Below, in pieces: positions 14,067 through 25,685 of a stretch of DNA of 28,406 bases (positions are counted from its first letter, which is position 1; every line of letters starts with the position of its first letter). The notes under the pieces are model-generated. The model was not told the DNA's origin and ran no database searches. It worked only from the letters and a program-made list of their open reading frames with translations. The stretch is from positions 1 to 28,406 of IMG/VR virus record IMGVR_UViG_3300036886_000446; one strand, 5' to 3'. This stretch comes from a virus. The position numbers were made by a program, and so were the translations under genes.

Positions 14067-14807
14067 TTACAGACGGCGACCGAGAAAAATTCCGACTACC
14101 GTGCTCGCGATGGAAGCCCAGACGCCGCGCTTCAGGTCCTTGATGCCCTGCTTGTCGACGCGCACATCGCATGCGGCATTGTCAGCTTTGATTGTGGAAA
14201 TGAGTTCGACTTTGTCTGCAGAAATCACTTGATTTGCCGTTTCTAGCTCTACTTTAGCATCAGAAGTCAAAATCTTTTGCGAGCCGAGTTGGCCCTGAAG
14301 ATTGGTAACATCGCGCTGCGACTGATCAAATAAATCCAAGTCGGCGACGACGATTCGCGTGAGCGGCAACGTCATGCTGACGGTGTCATTAACCACGGTT
14401 ACGTCGCTCGGACTCGCTTTGGTCTGTGTCACCAGGCGCGCTGCAGCCGCCTTGGCATCGAGTGTAGCGTCGGTGGAAACTTGCTTTGCGGTGGCCGCGC
14501 GTTGCTGGGCCATCTGTGAAACGAGGGAGTTGATTAGTGTCGTTTGCGCAGCGTCGCGGACAAGATTATCCGCATGTTCCTGCTGCAATTGCGCCATGAA
14601 CGCGGCCTGGGTGGCAGTGTTGACGCCTTCCTTGGCGAGCGTGGCGGCAGCAGTGCGTTCGTCGTGCTTCAGGTTCAAGTACTCGACAAGGCTAATGCCG
14701 CCAAAAATGGTTCCCGCGAGCACGACAATCGCCAACAGGGCGACGAGGATGTTACCACGAATCCAAGCTATATCTTTCTCAACGGTGACGAGCGGTGTGT
14801 CTGCCAT
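14067..14807 (-). CDS. Membrane-anchored coiled-coil protein, 246 aa
   Basis: ATG 14807 is chosen over ATG 14819 because TGGAGA lies 6 nt before it. After 17 polar residues there is a strong hydrophobic segment (about 18-40, NILVALLAIVVLAGTIFGGI). A long Ala/Gln/Lys-rich region (about 50-215) with heptad-like spacing follows, then a second hydrophobic stretch at the end (ASIASTVVGIFLG) closed by RRL. The topology suggests a bitopic or hairpin inner-membrane protein with a coiled coil between the anchors. It is the first gene after the 14818-14877 promoter. A spanin-, holin- or replication-anchor role is possible; none is shown. Confidence 0.78.
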   Translation of the reverse strand: MADTPLVTVEKDIAWIRGNILVALLAIVVLAGTIFGGISLVEYLNLKHDERTAAATLAKEGVNTATQAAFMAQLQQEHADNLVRDAAQTTLINSLVSQMAQQRAATAKQVSTDATLDAKAAAARLVTQTKASPSDVTVVNDTVSMTLPLTRIVVADLDLFDQSQRDVTNLQGQLGSQKILTSDAKVELETANQVISADKVELISTIKADNAACDVRVDKQGIKDLKRGVWASIASTVVGIFLGRRL

Positions 14808-14817
14808 ATTTATCTCC

Positions 14818-14877
14818 ATGTACCAAGGTCTTGGTACATACCACGACCATGGTACTAAAGTGCCGGCACGTTGTCAA
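14818..14877 (-). promoter_or_regulatory. Promoter with three palindromic operators for the replication operon
   Basis: Minus-strand TTGACA (14877-14872), a 17-nt spacer and TACCAT (14854-14849). Three palindromes overlap it: GTGCCGGCAC in the spacer, ACCATGGT over the -10 box, and TGTACCAAGGTCTTGGTACA (14818-14837, 9-bp arms) near the start of transcription. The GTACCA half-site recurs in the 7139-7167 promoter. The -35 box and spacer lie within the last codons of the upstream endonuclease gene. Confidence 0.7.
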
Positions 14878-15355
14878 GCCTTTTTAGTCGGGCAGAGAGA
14901 TATTCGATGACCGGAAGTAGATTTTCTGGATGGCGTGCGGCGTCGAAGAATCGTTCGATGCACCCGAGTCCGTAGTTACACTTGCCGCACAGCACGCCGC
15001 GAATTGACCACGGCATCATCGCTTGTTTGACACTCGCGATAGCCGCCGTTTTTGTTTTGGCGTGCCGGGTGAAAACGACTTTTCGTTCTTCGTCAAACCC
15101 TTGAGCAAACCACTTCAAACCCAACGCAAGTACTAACGCGTCGGATTGGCGCGTCGCAATCACTTTGAAATGGAAATGATCTAAACAGGGGTATCCATGG
15201 GCGTCAAGGGCTCCACCACAGATTTTGCAGAGATTGTTTTGTTCGTAGACGCGGCGGTCTCGGTCTTGGATATTGATGCCGAACTTGCGTTGGAGGCGCT
15301 TGTCTTTGGCGTTTCGCTTTTCTTCATCTGTTGCGATCTTTTTTGCTCCCGCCAT
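14855..15355 (-). CDS. Recombination endonuclease VII family protein
   Basis: 166 residues from ATG 15355 (GGAGAG ribosome site). The N-terminus is Lys/Arg-rich; the nuclease core follows: CKICGG, GYPCLDHFHF, IRGVLCGKCNYGLGCIERFFD and ENLLPVIEYLSARL. The CxxC...DH...CxxCNxGLG pattern is the T4 gp49 (endonuclease VII) zinc-binding His-Me-finger nuclease. T4 endonuclease VII resolves branched DNA before packaging, but many short phage relatives act as homing nucleases. An insertion of about 45 residues (ATRQSDALVLALG...) separates the DH motif from the second CxxC. Either role fits its place at the border of the structural and replication modules. Confidence 0.9.
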   Translation of the reverse strand: MAGAKKIATDEEKRNAKDKRLQRKFGINIQDRDRRVYEQNNLCKICGGALDAHGYPCLDHFHFKVIATRQSDALVLALGLKWFAQGFDEERKVVFTRHAKTKTAAIASVKQAMMPWSIRGVLCGKCNYGLGCIERFFDAARHPENLLPVIEYLSARLKRLDNVPAL

Positions 15356-15486
15356 TGTTTTCTCTCCGCAAACCGCTCCGCGTTCATTCGCCAAACTTCT
15401 CTTTCATAAAATCTCACGTACTCCCCCTGGATGACAATCCAGATGAGCAGGAGAATCTCAAGAACCATGAGAGCTCTATCGAACAT
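15181..15486 (-). CDS. Small single-pass membrane protein overlapping endonuclease VII gene, 101 aa
   Basis: ATG 15486 opens a frame whose first 44 codons lie in the gap before the endonuclease gene and whose remaining 58 codons overlap it in another frame. The protein has one N-terminal membrane segment (about 5-22, ALMVLEILLLIWIVIQG) followed by a charged helix (FYEREVWRMNAERFAERKQW) and a Ser/Thr/Lys-rich tail. This is the layout of inner-membrane spanins or small phage anchors, but no partner is visible. The ribosome site is weak. A 175-nt overlap is unusual, so the end of the protein is less certain than its start. Confidence 0.55.
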   Translation of the reverse strand: MFDRALMVLEILLLIWIVIQGEYVRFYEREVWRMNAERFAERKQWREQKRSQQMKKSETPKTSASNASSASISKTETAASTNKTISAKSVVEPLTPMDTPV

Positions 15487-15503: not shown

Positions 15504-18500
15504 TTATTTGGCGGCTGTCAAGGTGGAAGGTTTCATAATCTCGCGGACTTCGTCGCCCGAGAGTTTGCCGCGCGCCGCGATATGGCTGGTCACGTTATCG
15601 ATGTGTTTTTGAACCGCAGGATCGGCCAGAAGTGCTGTGACGCGCGCCTTGGCTTCTGCTGACTGTTGGCCGCCCTGCAGCATTTGATCCGTGCCCCCAG
15701 TGCCGCCCGTTGCGAGCCGTTGGATGCCTTGCCACATTGTGTCCGCCCTGCCGCCGAGAACCTGTTTGCGCGCGGCCAGGTCGCCGCTAGAATGCATCGG
15801 CGTCGTTCCGCCGGGTTCGGAGAGCCCGCCCGCGTATGACGTGGCGATCATGTTGCGCACTTCATCAGGCGATAGCTGGCCGACCGTAGTCTTGCCCGCT
15901 GGTGGCTGAATGTCGGTGACACCGCCGCCTGCGGTCAACCCTGTCGAATTGACGGAGCCTGGGGTCAGCATTTCGCTGATCACCGAGTGCGCGGCTTCGT
16001 GGCGGGCAGCATTGAACCGCGTGTCCGGGTCGTTCATATTGTCCGCAGCAGTTTGTTTGAGTTTTTTCGGAATAGGCGCGATAAAAGATGCGCCGTATGC
16101 AGCAGGCAGGTCCGATACTCCATGTTCATCTACGACCTTTTGCAGATCGGGATGATACGCGGGTTCTACTTTGCGGGTGTCTGCGGTGGTGATTTTTTCG
16201 TCAGTTGCTGGTCCAGTTGCTTGCGAAACTCTGCCTTCTCCTGCGGCGACATCTGTTTCACCTGCTCCAGCAGCAAGGCCCCCAACTGCTCTGTCGTCGG
16301 GTCTTTCGGCAACGCCTTGTTCGTCTCCATGTTCGATTCTCCTCTGTGTCTCCAAATGCATGTTCCGAAGTCGTTCGGGACTGTAGTGATATTGCCGCGA
16401 CAACCCCGCCTCGCGGGTGCCTTCGTTCTCTTTAATCATACCAGAAACTGCAGGCTGCGTCAAATATTCTACTCCCGCATCTATCTGCTTATGCATAAAT
16501 TCGAGCGCATCCTCGTGCGTGTCCCCCAACGCTCGCAATATCTGGTACGCTTGCCCGCCGTCCGATCCACGGGAAGAGATATTGAAGTTATGGTTGGCAG
16601 CGCGATGCAAGTCATTGAACACCTCGTCTGCCGCGATGCCGCCCATGAGCGTGCGCACAACAGCAGAACGCTTCTCTGGCTTAATCGTCTGGGTTCCTGG
16701 TTGAAATATATCCCGACCATCCCAAACCACCGACGCGCGCATATCCGAACTGCTGTCTGGGTGAGTATGCCGCAGCATTCCTTTCTGAACCAAACCTTCA
16801 TTTTGACCGACCATCGCATGACTAAGTTCATGTCGAACTGTGTGTACTGCAGATCGGTCTCCCGAAGCGGGCATAGAAAGATGCTGTTGGGTTCCGACTG
16901 CGTACTTGTCTGACGGGACTCGCTCCCCGAAGGATTTGATGCTCCATTCTTGTGCTTCAGGAAACTGTTTTTTCGCCGCAGCAATCGCGGTTTTGGGCGA
17001 GAACGCTTCGACAGGTTCGGTATGGGTCGTGCCGTCTGGGTCTCTCACTTCGAGTGAATACGGCTCTTTCAGGGGCGTCTGTAGTTCATTCGTGACAAGA
17101 TTATCCTCGGCGTCTTCGGACCCTGGGCGCGGTGCTTGGTTCAAGCCGCTGACGTACCGACCTGTGTCTCCATAAGCCTCAGACATGTTTATGGTCTGAC
17201 CGGGAAGTTGACCACGGCCAGCAAGAGCCTGTTCGAATTGTGGCTCGGGCGGCGCGGGTTCAGCTTGAGGCTTCGTCAAGTCCATCGTGTACCCTGGCGA
17301 TCCAGGTTTTGATGGAATTTTTGTAACGGGGTAACCTTTAGCCGCCAGCGCATCCCACACTCGCGCCGCGTCCATGGTCGTAGTTCCCTGCAGATCGGAA
17401 GTCATTTTGGAAATGCCGCGTGCACGAAGTTCATCCGCCGCGCGCAGATACAACGCCTGCGCATGCTGCTGGCCGCGATAGGTGGGCTCCACATGCGCCG
17501 CCGTAATCGCGGCGGTATCGGGGCGCTCTTCCTGCGGAATGGTGTATCGAACGCGACCCACTTCTTTGCCGCCGTCCATCAGTTTTACCAGCCCAGCGGA
17601 ATCGCCGATAGGCTCGTGTTTGATTGTGGGCGCGATCTTATCTGCTGAGACAAGATCAGGTGCCTTTACTTCTATGCCGCCCACGCTATCGAAAGTGGTG
17701 TGATCGGAAGGAACCGCCGTCGACGAGCCGTCTGCTGCAGGCGCGGCGACTGGTGTTTTTTCGACGGGCGGTATATTTTTTTCGGGCGGGGCCGCAGTTT
17801 TGTTTTTTAAGATATCCCGAATCTCTCCGATACCGGAGAAGTGTTCAATAGCATAATTGGTATAGCCTAAATCCGCCAATGCTTTTGCGGTTTCGCGACT
17901 CATCTCAGGAAGTGGTTCTTCAACGCCGGATTTTTCTGCCGCAGCTTGGGCTGCCGGTTCAGGGGCTTTGAATGTCGAGGCTTCGTCGGGCACCCCGCTC
18001 CGAGTGCTGGCATCAAATGCTTCGCCAACCCCGCCTGCGGCGTGCATACCCGCTGCCGCCGCGCCAGCCCCAGTAAGGGCCATGTCGGTACCGATTCGAA
18101 GTGAGTCCCCAAATGCCTCATCATGCTCTTGTTGGGTTTTAGCGTTCTGGGCTCGGTCTATCGCGGCCTTAAACTCAGGAACTTTTTGATATGCTGAGTG
18201 AAGCATATCCAAAGAGAACGCTCCCGAAATTAGCGGCGCAATCGCGGGAAACAGTTCACCTAGTCCAGCCGAACCTGCTATGACGCCGGGCATCGACGGA
18301 TGTGTCAGCTTCCCTATGAACTTCAGGGCTTCCGTGGCGACAGGGTGCTGTTTTTGTTGCTCGGGGGTGAATATCTCTTCTGGGGCAGCAAACCCCATCT
18401 GCCCATATTCAGGATTCGCCGAAGTACGCGAAGAAAATTGAGGAATATTTTCGGTAAAGATTTTTTTGATCTTCGCGCCGACGCTGGGTTCAGGCGCGGC

Positions 18501-18668
18501 TTCTATAGTTGGGCTGGTCGGCTTGGGGTTGACTTTGTTCCAAAACGGAGTCTTGTCTTTTGCCGGGTCGTACGCAGGCACGTCAGGGTTAACCTGAATC
18601 GGCTGTTCAGATGGCGACGGAACGTCGGGGTTGACCTGAATCGTCGGTGTATTTAGTTCGTCGGCCAC
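15504..18668 (-). CDS. Large virion-type protein with GNAT-like and two HExxH (FtsH-peptidase-like) domains
   Basis: 1054 residues from GTG 18668 (GAGAGG upstream). The start is Pro-rich and contains IQVNPDVP twice (10-17, 24-31). Next come a hydrophobic region (about 105-155) and an Ala/Gly-rich stretch (about 190-215). A GNAT-acetyltransferase-like segment (about 360-455) shows HVEPTYRGQQHAQALYLRA. The first zinc-protease motif is HELSH (613-617), followed by GGIAADEVFND and SDGGQAYQILRALG, resembling the M41 peptidase part of FtsH. The second is HEAAH (890-894), followed by a Gly/Pro-rich loop and SYAGGLSEPGG. No AAA+ ATPase domain is present. Position behind the head genes and size suggest an ejected internal protein, but this is inference. 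Confidence 0.75.
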   Translation of the reverse strand: MADELNTPTIQVNPDVPSPSEQPIQVNPDVPAYDPAKDKTPFWNKVNPKPTSPTIEAAPEPSVGAKIKKIFTENIPQFSSRTSANPEYGQMGFAAPEEIFTPEQQKQHPVATEALKFIGKLTHPSMPGVIAGSAGLGELFPAIAPLISGAFSLDMLHSAYQKVPEFKAAIDRAQNAKTQQEHDEAFGDSLRIGTDMALTGAGAAAAGMHAAGGVGEAFDASTRSGVPDEASTFKAPEPAAQAAAEKSGVEEPLPEMSRETAKALADLGYTNYAIEHFSGIGEIRDILKNKTAAPPEKNIPPVEKTPVAAPAADGSSTAVPSDHTTFDSVGGIEVKAPDLVSADKIAPTIKHEPIGDSAGLVKLMDGGKEVGRVRYTIPQEERPDTAAITAAHVEPTYRGQQHAQALYLRAADELRARGISKMTSDLQGTTTMDAARVWDALAAKGYPVTKIPSKPGSPGYTMDLTKPQAEPAPPEPQFEQALAGRGQLPGQTINMSEAYGDTGRYVSGLNQAPRPGSEDAEDNLVTNELQTPLKEPYSLEVRDPDGTTHTEPVEAFSPKTAIAAAKKQFPEAQEWSIKSFGERVPSDKYAVGTQQHLSMPASGDRSAVHTVRHELSHAMVGQNEGLVQKGMLRHTHPDSSSDMRASVVWDGRDIFQPGTQTIKPEKRSAVVRTLMGGIAADEVFNDLHRAANHNFNISSRGSDGGQAYQILRALGDTHEDALEFMHKQIDAGVEYLTQPAVSGMIKENEGTREAGLSRQYHYSPERLRNMHLETQRRIEHGDEQGVAERPDDRAVGGLAAGAGETDVAAGEGRVSQATGPATDEKITTADTRKVEPAYHPDLQKVVDEHGVSDLPAAYGASFIAPIPKKLKQTAADNMNDPDTRFNAARHEAAHSVISEMLTPGSVNSTGLTAGGGVTDIQPPAGKTTVGQLSPDEVRNMIATSYAGGLSEPGGTTPMHSSGDLAARKQVLGGRADTMWQGIQRLATGGTGGTDQMLQGGQQSAEAKARVTALLADPAVQKHIDNVTSHIAARGKLSGDEVREIMKPSTLTAAK

Positions 18669-18682
18669 AAAGCCTCTCGGAA

Positions 18683-19276
18683 TTACGGGTTCATTACGTG
18701 CAGGCGCGGGTCAATCGCCCGGGCTTTCTCGATATTCTCTTTCGGTAAATCGTGAATTCCGCCGTCACTGGCCAAGACCCGAAAATGGGCCGGATCAATA
18801 GGGGGGAGGTGAGGTAACCCGTCGGGTCTGTCGGGCTGCACCAATGGCGCAGATTGGGTATCCTTGCCGCCTGCAGGCGATTTTGGCGAGGTTTTAGCTC
18901 CGTTTGATGGTTCCGCACCACCAGCCCCTTTTTCAGCGGCTGTAGCCGCCGATGTAAACGCCTTCAAGACATTTGGGTGTGCCTCGGCCAATTCCAAAGC
19001 GTGGGAGTCAAGTTGAGTCATCCGTTGAATAGCGGCAGCAGTCTTCTCCACGGGTTCGGCGGGCGCGGCGGACGCGACCGCGTTCTTTTTAGCATCCCAA
19101 AGCCGTTTCTTGAAATCCTCGGGCAGGACGAGAGGCTGCAGGTGCTGCACCAGTTCGTCCGCATTTTTGGTGTGGAAGGCATCCCACAGGTCGGCGCGCT
19201 GTTGGTCGTTAATCGTTGGCTCTCCCGCTAAAACGGGTGCCGCGTGGTCGGTGAATGGCGATGCCGATGCGGACAT
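18683..19276 (-). CDS. Unknown Ala/Pro-rich protein, 197 aa
   Basis: ATG 19276 overlaps the phosphatase stop (TAATG). The N-terminal half is helical and charged (INDQQRADLWDAFHTKNADELVQHLQPLVLPEDFKKRLWDAKKNA), the middle is a low-complexity Ala/Ser/Lys/Pro linker (about 105-145), and a short ordered end contains FRVLASDGGIHDLPKENIEKARAIDP. That end resembles short sequences in some phage internal proteins, but I cannot assign it. It precedes the 1054-residue protein by 14 nt and is probably a structural or ejected partner. Function unknown. Confidence 0.78.
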   Translation of the reverse strand: MSASASPFTDHAAPVLAGEPTINDQQRADLWDAFHTKNADELVQHLQPLVLPEDFKKRLWDAKKNAVASAAPAEPVEKTAAAIQRMTQLDSHALELAEAHPNVLKAFTSAATAAEKGAGGAEPSNGAKTSPKSPAGGKDTQSAPLVQPDRPDGLPHLPPIDPAHFRVLASDGGIHDLPKENIEKARAIDPRLHVMNP

Positions 19277-19893
19277 TATGAAACTCCGATCTCGGGCGCT
19301 ACATGACCCAGTAACACTTCAAAACTGACTTCGCCTTTTTCGTCCATATAGACGCCGATAATGCCCCCAGGCAAAACGGATTCCTTCACAGCTTCGAGAC
19401 CCATCAGGGCTTTGATCACGGAATTGTGTATGAATATGGCGGTCGGCAGTGCTTTGTACGGAGACGCCAGATACTGAAAGATCACTTGCACGCGCAGCTT
19501 GACTTGGTTGCGGCTCTCGCCGCCGGGGATAACCAAATCAGGGTCATCCAGATATTTCTGAAACGCAGCAAGACGCTCCGGTGTTTTTTCCTTGCCCGTA
19601 AATTCGTCGGACACAAACCACGGTCGCAAATTCGGGTCACAGGCCATGAATGGACATTCGACGCAGCCGGTGTCCATCAGATATTGCGCCGTGTGCGTGG
19701 CGCGCGGAAGGTCTGAAGCAACTACTCGACCGATGCGCTCAAACGAGAGCCATTGCGCAGCTTTTTCGGCTTGCTGGCAGCCTTCTTCACTCAAATTCAG
19801 GTCACCCCAAGAGTCCCAAACGTGCATGTTTGTTAACTCACCATGCCGAATAAGGTAGCCGATTAGTTGGTGAGATGGGTCCATGTTGAACAT
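19276..19893 (-). CDS. Histidine phosphatase superfamily protein (phosphoglycerate mutase-like)
   Basis: 205 residues from ATG 19893 (AAGGGAA 6 nt upstream). The catalytic RHG motif is in GYLIRHGELTN (His17 region), then LSEEGCQQAEKAAQWL, VVASDLPRATHTAQYL with the second phosphate-binding Arg, GGESRNQVKLRV, and IFIHNSVIKAL, where the second catalytic His normally sits in a HGG-type motif (here HNS). These enzymes remove phosphate from sugars, nucleotides or proteins via phosphohistidine. The gene lies 18 nt downstream of tRNA-Thr. Its role in a phage is unclear; nucleotide scavenging is one idea. Confidence 0.88.
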   Translation of the reverse strand: MFNMDPSHQLIGYLIRHGELTNMHVWDSWGDLNLSEEGCQQAEKAAQWLSFERIGRVVASDLPRATHTAQYLMDTGCVECPFMACDPNLRPWFVSDEFTGKEKTPERLAAFQKYLDDPDLVIPGGESRNQVKLRVQVIFQYLASPYKALPTAIFIHNSVIKALMGLEAVKESVLPGGIIGVYMDEKGEVSFEVLLGHVAPEIGVS

Positions 19894-19911
19894 TTCATTC
19901 CCTTCAAAGAG

Positions 19912-19984
19912 AGCCCGAAGATGGAGTCGAACCACCGACATGTCGAGTACAGATCGACGGCTCTGGCCGCTGAGCTACTCGGGC
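19912..19984 (-). tRNA. tRNA-Thr(UGU), unusual C33
   Basis: A full cloverleaf folds on the minus strand: acceptor GCCCGAG/TTCGGGC (one G-U), D stem GCTC/GAGC, anticodon stem GTCGA/TCGAC with loop TCTGTAC, 5-nt variable loop, T stem GGTGG/CCATC with loop TTCGACT, discriminator T. The anticodon by position is TGT. Position 33, nearly always T, is C. CCA is not encoded. A Tyr(GUA) reading would need a shifted loop that breaks the stem. Confidence 0.88.
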
Positions 19985-21094: not shown

Positions 21095-21169
21095 TGGAGC
21101 GGACTGCGTGAATCGGACACGCTTGTTCTGGGTGGAAGCCAGATGCCTATGCCATTCGGCCAAGCCCGC
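21095..21169 (-). tRNA. tRNA-Gly(UCC)
   Basis: Cloverleaf on the minus strand: acceptor GCGGGCT/AGTCCGC, T8, a 3-bp D stem GCC/GGC with A14 and GG18-19, anticodon stem TCTGG/CCAGA with loop CTTCCAC (anticodon TCC, T33, A37), 4-nt variable loop, T stem GCGTG/CACGC with loop TCCGATT, discriminator T and encoded CCA (21097-21095). G1-C72, C2-G71 and U73 are the usual bacterial glycine identity elements. Confidence 0.9.
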
Positions 21170-21365: not shown

Positions 21366-21439
21366 TGGTGGACCGTGAGGGATTCGAACCCCCGTCTCCA
21401 GCGTGCAAAGCTGGCCGTCTCCCGCTGACATAACAGCCC
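21366..21439 (-). tRNA. tRNA-Ala(UGC)
   Basis: Cloverleaf on the minus strand: acceptor GGGCTGT/ACGGTCC including the G3-U70 pair that defines alanine tRNA, D stem TGTC/GACG, anticodon stem CCAGC/GCTGG with loop TTTGCAC (anticodon TGC), 4-nt variable loop, T stem GGGGG/CCCTC with loop TTCGAAT, discriminator A and encoded CCA. The 196 nt between this gene and tRNA-Gly (21170-21365) hold only short GC-rich hairpins such as GGGCA/TGCCC and nothing I can name. Confidence 0.95.
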
Positions 21440-22599: not shown

Positions 22600-22908
22600 T
22601 CAAACTTTCTTGTACTGCTTCAAATACGCAAGTCCTGATTCCATCTCGGCGATTGAATCATGAAACTGGCCGAGTCCTACATTGTGTTCACGACAGAGAA
22701 CCATGCGATTTTCGTTCGTCTCATGGTCGTGGTCTTGGCAGGGCGACGTTCTCGCTTTGCCTCGTGGCCCAAAGGGATGATTCCCAATAGGACACATACC
22801 ACCTTGCTTCTCAATCTGGGCCTCAAACTCGGCGAGCGTGATTTTATGCACGCACCGATAATACCTGTCGTTCTTTGCCGCCGCAGTTTGACTGGGCCAA
22901 GAAGCCAC
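22600..22908 (-). CDS. Endonuclease VII-like nuclease, 5' end uncertain
   Basis: Only GTG 22908 gives a usual start, yielding 102 residues. The core matches short phage endonuclease VII proteins: ITLAEFEAQIEKQGGMCPIGNHPF, CQDHDHETNENRMVLCREHNVGLGQFHDS, with DHDH and the final CxxHNxGLG metal and catalytic residues. The first zinc CxxC is replaced by CPIGNH. The frame stays open upstream to 23064, past the capsid stop, and reads as normal basic coding sequence (SRRQKKYREEHPDK), typical of this family's N-terminus, but it has no ATG, GTG or TTG. GGAGGT at 23037-23032 could serve TTA or ATC codons. Probably a homing nuclease next to the capsid gene. Confidence 0.75.
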   Translation of the reverse strand: MASWPSQTAAAKNDRYYRCVHKITLAEFEAQIEKQGGMCPIGNHPFGPRGKARTSPCQDHDHETNENRMVLCREHNVGLGQFHDSIAEMESGLAYLKQYKKV

Positions 22909-23018
22909 TTTATCAGGGTGCTCCTCGCGGTACTTCTTTTGTCTGCGACTTGCGCTTGCTTTTGCGACTTCGCTGGTTGGGTCCTTGTAAAATCTTTGTA
23001 GTGTCTGTAAGTGCCTGA

Positions 23019-24011
23019 TTAAACGGCGCTTACCTCCGCCCGGATTCTTCGGAACCCTGGGGTGTTATTGGTATTAGGTCTCGCCACAACCCCGAGGAAC
23101 CAGTTGTAGCTCACGATTGCTCGTGTCTGCAACATCGGGTTCGAAAGGTCGATGTCGTTATCGCCGAAGGTCTTGACGTTCACCTTAAAGCTGGGATTGC
23201 GCGGAACGCGGTTGCCCAGCAATTCGGAAGCCATCATGGCCTCGCGACCCACGACGTGCGTCCCATAACCAGTCTTCCCGGTTGATGGGTAGTTGGTATA
23301 GGTCGGCACGGTCTGAGTGCGGATGATGCGGACGCCGCTCCATTCCAGGACGGTGTAGCCGCGTGTCATGTCCGACTTCAGGACTGCTGCGCCAGCTTCG
23401 CTTCGCTTGAGGGTGTCAACTGCGGACCCTGCGCTGTTGTCCGACATGAAGTCGTACACAACGTACGGATGCATCGCAGCCGTGTAAAGCCCGCCGTCGC
23501 GACCCGGAACAGCGTTTCCCATCAACTGGGATTCGCTCTTGCGAATCGTATTGGAGAGCATGAATTCGTTGTCGAGTAGATCGATTCGGGCCGAGGCTTG
23601 CGCGGTTGCGGCAACTTCAAAGCCGTTAATCGCGATCAAGTTACTCGTGAGCGCGCCGCGATACGACAGGTTGCGGCTCGCGTCCAGCGTGATGTCCGCA
23701 AGGAACATTTGCTGGGCCACGTTCGAAATGCCGACCCAGTCGCCATACTCGTCGGCGAATGCGTCGCTGAAAACCTGGTTCAATTGCAAAGACGGACCCG
23801 GAATTCCTTCCGACAAGTCGTACGTCGCTGCAGCATACGGAGTTTGCCCGTAGAACTGAAGTGTCCGACCTGACCGGCGAGGCAGTGGACGGAAGTCACA
23901 CAATTCCTCAAGATAAGGGGTATTGAATTGCCATTCGAGAATGGCAGTGCGGTCGTACGCAATCTGCGGAAACGCGGCTAGTGTGGTACTTTGAACGCCA
24001 GGCGGTAAAAT
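23019..24011 (-). CDS. Major capsid protein, N4-gp56 type; start codon unresolved
   Basis: The reading frame is open from 24026 to TAA 23019. The encoded protein (ILPPGVQSTTLAAFPQIAYDRTAIL... then LCDFRPLPRRSGRTLQFYGQTP) has the order and motifs of N4-gp56-family capsid proteins: YDR, a helix, RPLPRRSGRT, later AINGFE, AMHPYVVYDF, WSGVRIIRT, YGTHVVGREAMM and a C-terminal IVSYNWFLGVVARPN. It forms the HK97-like shell. The first usual start, TTG 23903, would cut off about 36 conserved-looking residues. ATT 24011-24009, 10 nt after AGAGGG, is the best upstream candidate and gives 330 residues. An intron, an upstream exon, or a base error are alternatives. It lies between two nuclease genes. Confidence 0.82.
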   Translation of the reverse strand: MLPPGVQSTTLAAFPQIAYDRTAILEWQFNTPYLEELCDFRPLPRRSGRTLQFYGQTPYAAATYDLSEGIPGPSLQLNQVFSDAFADEYGDWVGISNVAQQMFLADITLDASRNLSYRGALTSNLIAINGFEVAATAQASARIDLLDNEFMLSNTIRKSESQLMGNAVPGRDGGLYTAAMHPYVVYDFMSDNSAGSAVDTLKRSEAGAAVLKSDMTRGYTVLEWSGVRIIRTQTVPTYTNYPSTGKTGYGTHVVGREAMMASELLGNRVPRNPSFKVNVKTFGDNDIDLSNPMLQTRAIVSYNWFLGVVARPNTNNTPGFRRIRAEVSAV

Positions 24012-24091
24012 CGTATAGGTACCCTCTTAATCCCTGGTTGGGATTTTGCGAAGGTATCTTGCTCAAGGAGTGCCTTCTACCTATGAAAGCG

Positions 24092-24534
24092 TTAGTCTAA
24101 AACTTTATGACGACGGCTTCGTAAAAGTTCTTTCTTGTGATTGTGGTTGCAACAAAGTGTCTGGTATCCTGCCGGATATCCTTCATTTCTCAACCTGCGG
24201 TACAGTTCATGTCCTCGACCATTATTTGGGGCCGCTCTTTTTTCTTGAGCGCCATTGTCCGCTATGTGGTCAAGCACAAGCATATCGATGTCGCGGATAT
24301 GGCAATCAGGCCAAGAACAGCACAACTGCCTAGATGATCCATAGTGAGACAAAACTTCTATCTTGATTGTCGTTCGAGATTTGGTTGTATACTGCGTTGT
24401 TTTAGGGGCTCGACGGATATAGACGCATGAAGTGCAGATTCCGGCATTGCGGCTTTGCGGCTTTGAAATTTTGATTCATCTGTTGCGCCGCAGTTGCGAC
24501 ACAATCTGGGTTGGCGTTCGCCTTTACCTGGCAT
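24092..24534 (-). pseudogene. HNH endonuclease gene broken by an 8-bp tandem duplication
   Basis: ATG 24534 has GAGGAGG upstream. The first frame reads MPGKGERQPRLCRNCGATDESKFQSR and then goes astray, ending at 24358. A second frame carries NAGICTSCVYIRRAP..., VLSHYGSSRQLCCSWPDC, VLDHIADNGAQEK, and NEGYPAGYQTLCCNHNHKKE, the typical end of a phage HNH nuclease. The break is at GCGGCTTT GCGGCTTT (24449-24464, plus strand): deleting one copy joins both parts into a normal protein of about 144 residues with CxxC pairs and the DH/HN catalytic residues. So the gene is a recent frameshift pseudogene, a phase-variable gene or an assembly error. It lies between scaffold and capsid genes. Confidence 0.85.
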
Positions 24535-24594
24535 TTTTTCCTCCTCGAAAGGAACCTGGGTTGGGGTTGTTCGAGGCAACCCCGGTACCCGGCT

Positions 24595-24616
24595 AAAAAG
24601 CGTCTGATCAGGACGC
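24595..24616 (-). terminator. Short intrinsic terminator after the scaffold-like gene
   Basis: Minus strand: GCGTC (24616-24612), loop CTGATCA, GACGC (24604-24600), then TTTTT (24599-24595). The 5-bp stem is short, so termination is probably partial. This suits lowering transcription between scaffold and the endonuclease. A GGGGTTG/CAACCCC hairpin follows at about 24563-24583. Confidence 0.55.
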
Positions 24617-24635
24617 CAAACTCATTATATCACAG

Positions 24636-25685
24636 TTACCCTCGCGGGGCAGCAAAGGTCTCCATGAACGCTGCGTCAGGATTTTTTCCGTTCGCAATTT
24701 GCCCTTTTTTCCAGGCGTCCAGGATTTCTTCAGGAGTCGCGTTTGCTGGGACATCAATTTTGGTTGCAGGTGTTGTACCTGCCGAAATAGGGATTCCGCT
24801 GACGCCAGAACTTGCGCCAAACAATGCAGAAGACGTAGCCGCAACGCGCGGAGGAGCGACAACAGGAGCAAGAGCAGCCGCAGCCGCAGCAGGAGCAGCA
24901 GGAGCAGCAGGAGCCACAACAGGTGCAGGAACCGCATCCACTACGGCTTCTGGAAAAAACGATCCCGTAGCTCTCATCGCAGACCACGCTTGCCCCAAAG
25001 CCGCAACTTTATCTTTCGCGTCGGTCAGACCAAGAACCGCGAGTTTATCACCGATGATCCCAAGATTTTTCTGCCCGCCGGGCCAATCAGCACCAGCAGG
25101 ACTATGCAAAAATTCTTCAGTAGCCTCGGCCCACGACTGGGTTTCTGCTGTCTCTTGATTGTGAGTAACCGCGTCTCGCAAAGCCTCCACGGGAATACCT
25201 TGTTTTGCAAGATAGGCTGTCATGGCTCCCGACTGTTCAATATACGTCGCTGCATCAATCTCGCCGCGTTTGAACTTTAGTTCAAGTTCAACTTTGGCTT
25301 CTGCCGCCTCTTCCGCTGCCTGTTGCGCGACAGTCGGGTCCACGACCGCAGCAACGGCGGACGCTTCTGCAGGCGTCTGCACGGCGTACGCAATTTTAAG
25401 TGCGTTGTTAACCGCACGTTCAAGTTCAAGTTCAGTCGCAGCTTCAAAAGTGAATTCTTTTCCACCAATCACTTCGGTACGAGTAAATCCAGTGGTCTCC
25501 GCATTCGCCTTATCCACCGCAGCCTTGGTAGCTGCCGCAGTTTCCGCAACCACCCGAGCAGCCTCGGCTGCCGCAACAGTCTGCGTATTGATCTCGGCCT
25601 GCACCGCCGCGCGAATGTCATCGGGGTTCAAAGAGTCCTGAATAGCTTTGGTCAAATCGGGAGTAACGGTGATTGGGTCGCTCAT
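24636..25685 (-). CDS. Probable head scaffolding protein, 349 aa
   Basis: ATG 25685 is preceded by AGGAGA. The protein is acidic, Ala/Glu/Val-rich and largely helical: two long helical parts (about 15-65 and 100-155) flank EVIGGKEFTFEAATELELERAVNNAL. A low-complexity Ala/Pro stretch (about 255-290) follows, then a short ordered end (EILDAWKKGQIANGKNPDAAFMETFAAPRG). Composition, size and position two genes after the portal and just before the major capsid protein match phage scaffolds, which guide shell assembly and are then removed. No catalytic motif is seen. The family is not identified by sequence, so the call rests on position and composition. Confidence 0.7.
   Translation of the reverse strand: MSDPITVTPDLTKAIQDSLNPDDIRAAVQAEINTQTVAAAEAARVVAETAAATKAAVDKANAETTGFTRTEVIGGKEFTFEAATELELERAVNNALKIAYAVQTPAEASAVAAVVDPTVAQQAAEEAAEAKVELELKFKRGEIDAATYIEQSGAMTAYLAKQGIPVEALRDAVTHNQETAETQSWAEATEEFLHSPAGADWPGGQKNLGIIGDKLAVLGLTDAKDKVAALGQAWSAMRATGSFFPEAVVDAVPAPVVAPAAPAAPAAAAAALAPVVAPPRVAATSSALFGASSGVSGIPISAGTTPATKIDVPANATPEEILDAWKKGQIANGKNPDAAFMETFAAPRG

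Follow-up and report, generated by a model that had tools for sequence, protein, structure and literature searches.

The window analysed here, a 28.4-kb virus record taken over its full 28,406 nucleotides, belongs to a soil phage that encodes one large protein with a GNAT domain and two protease domains. It holds genes for an SU10-like portal, a scaffold-like protein, a capsid protein, endonuclease VII, an exonuclease, UvsX, a DNA polymerase and a helicase, the names of the scaffold and capsid resting on position and conservation. The large protein (1054 aa) is encoded on the minus strand by a single open frame running from 18668 to 15504, with a GTG start 14 nt beyond the stop codon of g18683, the 197-aa gene upstream. 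The initial annotation had described one protein at 15504–18668 with HELSH (aa 613–617) and a later GGIAADEVFND, and HEAAH (aa 890–894) and a later AGGLSEPGG; frame and motifs are all in place, GGIAADEVFND at aa 676–686 and AGGLSEPGG at aa 946–954, on the minus strand, which it had left unstated. The gene occupies a hypervariable position, referred to below as the slot, and is laid out as follows.

14855–15394, minus strand: endonuclease VII-like gene (PF02945, PHROG endonuclease VII), the downstream flank, kept after the slot in relatives
15504–18668, minus strand: the multidomain gene (1054 aa), filling the hypervariable slot that g18683 and the endonuclease VII gene enclose; same slot in relatives
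15513–16139, minus strand: second M41-like peptidase domain (M41b), C-terminal, aa 844–1052, with H890-E891-H894, AGGLSE and D963
16299–16898, minus strand: first M41-like peptidase domain (M41a), aa 591–790, with H613-E614-H617, GGIAADE and D703
16899–17066, minus strand: small beta-beta-alpha-beta element in the AlphaFold model, aa 535–590, ahead of the first protease
17265–17633, minus strand: GNAT acetyltransferase-like domain, aa 346–468 (PF00583, E = 4e-6, above cut-off)
17769–18668, minus strand: N-terminal module, aa 1–300, common to part of the slot proteins
18683–19276, minus strand: g18683, 197 aa, the upstream flank, found directly before the slot in relatives at 39–54% identity

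DNA-repair and replication genes lie downstream of the slot. Two genes ahead of it is a histidine-phosphatase-superfamily gene (19276–19941) that is kept in almost all relatives, and three minus-strand tRNA genes (19912–19984, 21098–21169 and 21369–21439) are found between the capsid region and the slot. The capsid ORF itself (23019–23903, TTG start) is without the N-terminal extension that relatives (336–345 aa) have; it is separated from the scaffold gene by an HNH-endonuclease-like ORF (24092–24352), and a second endonuclease-like ORF is present at 22600–22908. The arrangement (22600–24636) suggests a homing element or an intron at the capsid gene. An Rfam scan detected no known intron near the capsid gene, and similar gaps occur in two relatives (L009 and L042).

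The N-terminal module shares 35–50% identity with six slot proteins of relatives (L024, L031, L059, L061, L062 and L064), and the N-termini of 22 slot proteins join in one BLAST cluster. The acetyltransferase-like segment that the initial annotation saw in the chain corresponds to a PF00583 match at aa 354–424 (27.5 bits against a Pfam cut-off of 20.7), and the same domain is present in nine other slot proteins. Its acetyl-CoA loop reads RGQQHA, whereas most relatives have RGxGxG/A or QGxGxG/A, so that the consensus Q/RxxGxG/A is absent from the window GNAT; with the loop altered in this way, the domain may be weakened or inactive. The modelled element at aa 535–590 gives local matches, at a Z of about 6 across 48 residues, to T7 Gp2-like proteins, to YkzG and to small phage proteins of the DpnD/PcfM type. 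T7 Gp2 is an RNA polymerase inhibitor; the predicted likeness is to a common small fold and is only a lead.

At least two HExxH motifs arise in 0.2% of 20,000 shuffles of the 1054-aa protein. By themselves the two motifs are thus suggestive, and what they mean depends on conservation and fold; at the level of sequence, the conservation of HExxH in relatives is far stronger evidence than the shuffle statistic. When the protein alone was compared with Pfam, PHROGs, NCBIfam and PDB sequences, M41 was not found. AlphaFold models were built from alignments of each domain family (A5 for M41a and A6 for M41b).

The M41a model (AF2) has a pLDDT of 85 and a pTM of 0.74. Its best 50 Foldseek rows against the PDB are all FtsH, YME1, AFG3L2, FtsHi or the M41-like 5iqj, and VIA-align superposes it on 3kds with a Z of 14.5 (149 residues, 3.0 Å), the best non-M41 row reaching 6.2. 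The 12 sequences in A5 diverge down to about 20% identity, and all 12 keep the two His, the Glu, a Gly of the GG segment and the Asp. Profile alignment (hhalign) to bacterial FtsH scores 47.6 against a maximum of 25.2 in 100 column shuffles and pairs D703 with the Asp of FtsH GASND. The best score for A5 went to a lysozyme (5i8l); that match, to a short repeat lying away from HExxH, was discarded.

For M41b (pLDDT 73, pTM 0.71, AF2), the best 50 Foldseek rows against the PDB are likewise all M41 (FtsH, YME1, AFG3L2 and FtsHi; best E 7.6e-5), and VIA-align gives Z of 15.8 and 15.2 to FtsH-type structures against 5.1 for the best non-M41 row. HEAxH, AGGxxE and the Asp are kept in all six sequences of A6. 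Here hhalign to bacterial FtsH scores 44.6 (maximum 20.9 in 100 column shuffles) and aligns the HExxH and GG..E motifs, though not the Asp; in an HMM alignment with the FtsH chain 8vw9, D963 pairs with the Asp in SGAANDIE. Pfam PF01434 matches two M41b relatives, the better with an E of 2.8e-4, under the gathering cut-off, and the NCBIfam FtsH model matches one (E 9.4e-4).

Judged by these alignments and predicted models, each of the two regions is a divergent peptidase domain of the M41 (FtsH) type, as the initial annotation had proposed. A fold unrelated to zinc proteases was looked for with Foldseek and VIA-align and is not what the models have; His, Glu, His and the Asp are retained in every aligned sequence of either family, with no loss of HExxH. 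In FtsH, the Asp with which D703 and D963 align serves as the third zinc ligand; each domain would bind zinc through HExxH and Asp. The chain has neither an AAA+ domain nor a P-loop by Pfam and a P-loop check, which bears out the earlier view that no ATPase accompanies the two cores.

Whole-protein and single-domain searches of an annotated phage collection and an exact-pattern search of IMG/VR returned no relatives of the protein; these were reached through the scaffold gene, the C-terminal domain and then the capsid gene (60 loci), together with built-up alignments. Their gene order is fixed: portal, g25749, scaffold, capsid, g21968, histidine phosphatase, g18683, the big gene, endonuclease VII, g14067, exonuclease, UvsX and polymerase. 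The capsid proteins of near relatives are mostly 87–95% identical, down to 73%, and the longest records measure about 96–102 kb. By portal protein, the nearest isolate is Tunturiibacter phage Tunturi_3 (23% identity), a 97.6-kb podovirus infecting an acidobacterium (PMC11924767); an acidobacterial host is therefore possible for the window phage. Gp25 of Tunturi_3 (L087, 26674–29886, 1070 aa), with its HELTH and a Gly/Ala-rich stretch of similar look, was considered as a counterpart and set aside, as BLAST and HMM comparisons show no relation. One further record, filed as 'Acinetobacter phage MD-2021a' (L086, CAKLQH020000021), carries ftsJ–ftsH–folP as on a bacterial chromosome and is probably host DNA filed as phage.

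The slot is the variable point in this otherwise fixed order. Sister proteins range from 291 aa (L023) to about 2080 aa and have only pieces in common with the window protein; across relatives the slot holds GNAT, either M41 domain, ART-PolyVal, radical SAM, DUF7178 or nothing. As called with profiles built in this analysis, GNAT, M41a and M41b occur together in the window and in L036 (the same protein in L010, L020 and L068), and both M41 domains without GNAT in L031. Another ten slot proteins lack M41b but carry M41a, some along with GNAT and some not (L025, L028, L038, L039, L046, L047, L051, L059, L064 and L081). M41b is the sole profiled domain in three (L024, L033 and L012), as GNAT is in another three (L058, L063 and L066), and each of the six proteins with M41b has it at the C-terminus. 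Pfam adds DUF7178 in many sister proteins, radical SAM alongside GNAT, M41a and DUF7178 in L046 and L051, and ART-PolyVal in L028 (E 6.5e-6, just under cut-off). In L042 the slot (14557–15127) is empty, with no ORF of at least 100 aa, intact flanks and conserved capsid genes; L043 is the same over this region. In more distant phages, which the capsid scan missed, three slot-like proteins (L176, L177 and L178; 1983, 1708 and 1504 aa) have two M41a copies each, the first with HDxxH beside an intact HExxH copy. Their sequences suggest that some M41 copies may be inactive.

Among 14 distinct complete slots, the window included, nine carry an M41 domain and the other five are without one, and a profile search of two whole records whose slots are without M41 (97,240 and 99,668 bases) detected neither domain elsewhere. 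The M41 domains are therefore accessory. The free swapping of enzyme domains in the slot suggests cargo sent into the host and not a fixed part of the virus.

We think it likely that the protein is a phage polyvalent protein with a GNAT-like domain and two diverged, ATPase-free M41 domains, an accessory product most likely packaged and delivered with the DNA. Packaging and ejection are what its class and the position of its gene point to: expressed from the side of the genome that holds the structural genes, it would enter the virion and reach the cell with the DNA. That position, only a few genes past portal, scaffold and capsid, also fits a protease that cuts capsid, scaffold or other structural proteins in assembly, as some phage proteases do. 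Such a maturation protease would, however, be expected to be constant among phages with capsid proteins 90–95% identical, and phages whose capsids are almost the same lack the M41 domains: five of the 14 complete slots are without them, profile searches detect neither anywhere in the 97,240- and 99,668-base records, and one phage with conserved capsid genes has an empty slot. We therefore reject this role as very improbable, and the accessory distribution makes the processing of essential virion proteins unlikely in general. Could the protein instead act early in the cytoplasm as a takeover enzyme that is never packaged? DNA-repair and replication genes are next downstream and phage GNATs can act in this way, as Rac does (PMC7552054). 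The gene nevertheless trails the structural genes on the same strand, and the protein resembles packaged polyvalent proteins in size, modular build and partner domains (PMC5512222). Neither argument settles the matter, and we regard this alternative as unlikely.

Whether packaged or not, the two folds might be catalytic. To our knowledge, all M41 peptidases work inside AAA+ hexamers, within an ATP-driven ring, and M41 activity without that ring is an assumption that we make here. Pseudo-enzymes usually lose their catalytic residues, whereas HExxH and the Asp persist in every aligned sequence (12 of 12 and six of six) despite the roughly 20% identity of the first domain. It is thus rather improbable that the role of the M41 folds is confined to binding or structure, as in plant FtsHi, a reading in whose favour are the normal requirement of M41 for an AAA+ ring, the HDxxH of the extra copies in L176–L178 and the inactive M41 domains known in plants (PMC9020784).

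On the preferred reading of a delivered, catalytic polyvalent protein, we infer that the M41 domains would cut exposed, unstructured peptide without ATP. As M41b is C-terminal wherever it occurs, we favour its processing its own chain and freeing the modules, for which P1 DdrB is a published parallel of a protease that processes its own chain (PMC5512222). M41a is internal and travels with varied partners, and would for that reason more probably act on host proteins during takeover. Taking the proteases together, their main role could well be on host proteins, at a chance somewhat short of even; self-processing is also quite possible, and some other role would be improbable. The phage GNAT Rac acts in a way that leads to cleavage of host RNA polymerase (PMC7552054), and a link between the window GNAT and its proteases is speculation. 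We put forward tentatively, and as something we would sooner doubt than assert, that an FtsH-type lineage freed from its ATPase has given rise to virion-delivered, ATP-independent proteases in swappable cargo, where one copy sets the modules free and the second cleaves host proteins upon entry.

If catalytic, a natural ATPase-free tandem M41 that retains all its catalytic residues would show the abilities of the bare core and serve as a soluble model enzyme. The protein adds a protease type to the polyvalent-protein arsenal of phages, and the arrangement of portal, capsid, slot and endonuclease VII gives a definable variable slot for mining phage effectors, applicable to about 100-kb soil phages without a close isolate.

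With FtsH, YME1 and AFG3L2, the window domains share the fold (Z 14.5–15.8), HExxH, the GG(x)AAxE segment, the Asp as putative third ligand and aligned C-terminal helices. They differ in having no AAA+ ATPase or P-loop, in occurring as two copies per chain at about 10–20% identity and in being embedded in a phage multi-enzyme protein. Because the chain lacks an AAA+ domain and a P-loop, the protein is described as carrying M41-like domains and is not filed as FtsH. M41 domains are found in other viruses, in the ATP-dependent FtsH homologue gp107 of phage MIJ3 (PMC6892783) and in giant-virus matches annotated as FtsH/Yme1-type in BFVD, but not there as multi-enzyme cargo. More than one M41 protease domain per polypeptide is described in plant FtsH7 and FtsH9 (PMC9020784); these are chloroplast proteins with an AAA+ domain in an unrelated context, whereas the window tandem is without one. 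A short solved protein of unknown function from Vibrio cholerae, PDB 5iqj, also matches both window domains (Z 8.3 and 9.7). At 125–131 residues it is too short for an AAA+ domain; it is, however, a small single-domain chain and not a phage multi-enzyme protein.

The closest likeness in overall design is to the polyvalent proteins, such as P1 DdrB and the N4 virion RNA polymerase (PMC5512222): a long chain of unrelated enzymes swapped among relatives. Polyvalent proteins occur in phages with portal-type packaging, and the window likewise has an SU10-like portal. The window protein has at least two unrelated enzyme domains, comes from a phage with portal-type packaging and is shuffled with domains typical of the class, its sister in L028 carrying ART-PolyVal. 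GNAT, ART and zincin peptidases are listed hallmarks of the class, about 36% of the set having one to five metallopeptidases and about 8% of those more than one (PMC5512222). The 12 polyvalent metallopeptidase clades are described as having a third-ligand Glu on the following helix and as showing no specific relationship to other zincin clades defined so far, and FtsH and M41 are absent from the main text of Iyer et al. 2017 (PMC5512222). Compared with those clades by their description, both window proteases seem unlike them, as the fold search finds M41 and the conserved third residue is Asp, and the polyvalent MPTase Pfam families give no match in the window protein. The initial annotation knew of no phage protein with this layout. 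This holds only in part: multi-zincin, multi-enzyme phage proteins have been described (PMC5512222), and what is new is the M41 type in a polyvalent protein, without an ATPase and in two copies.
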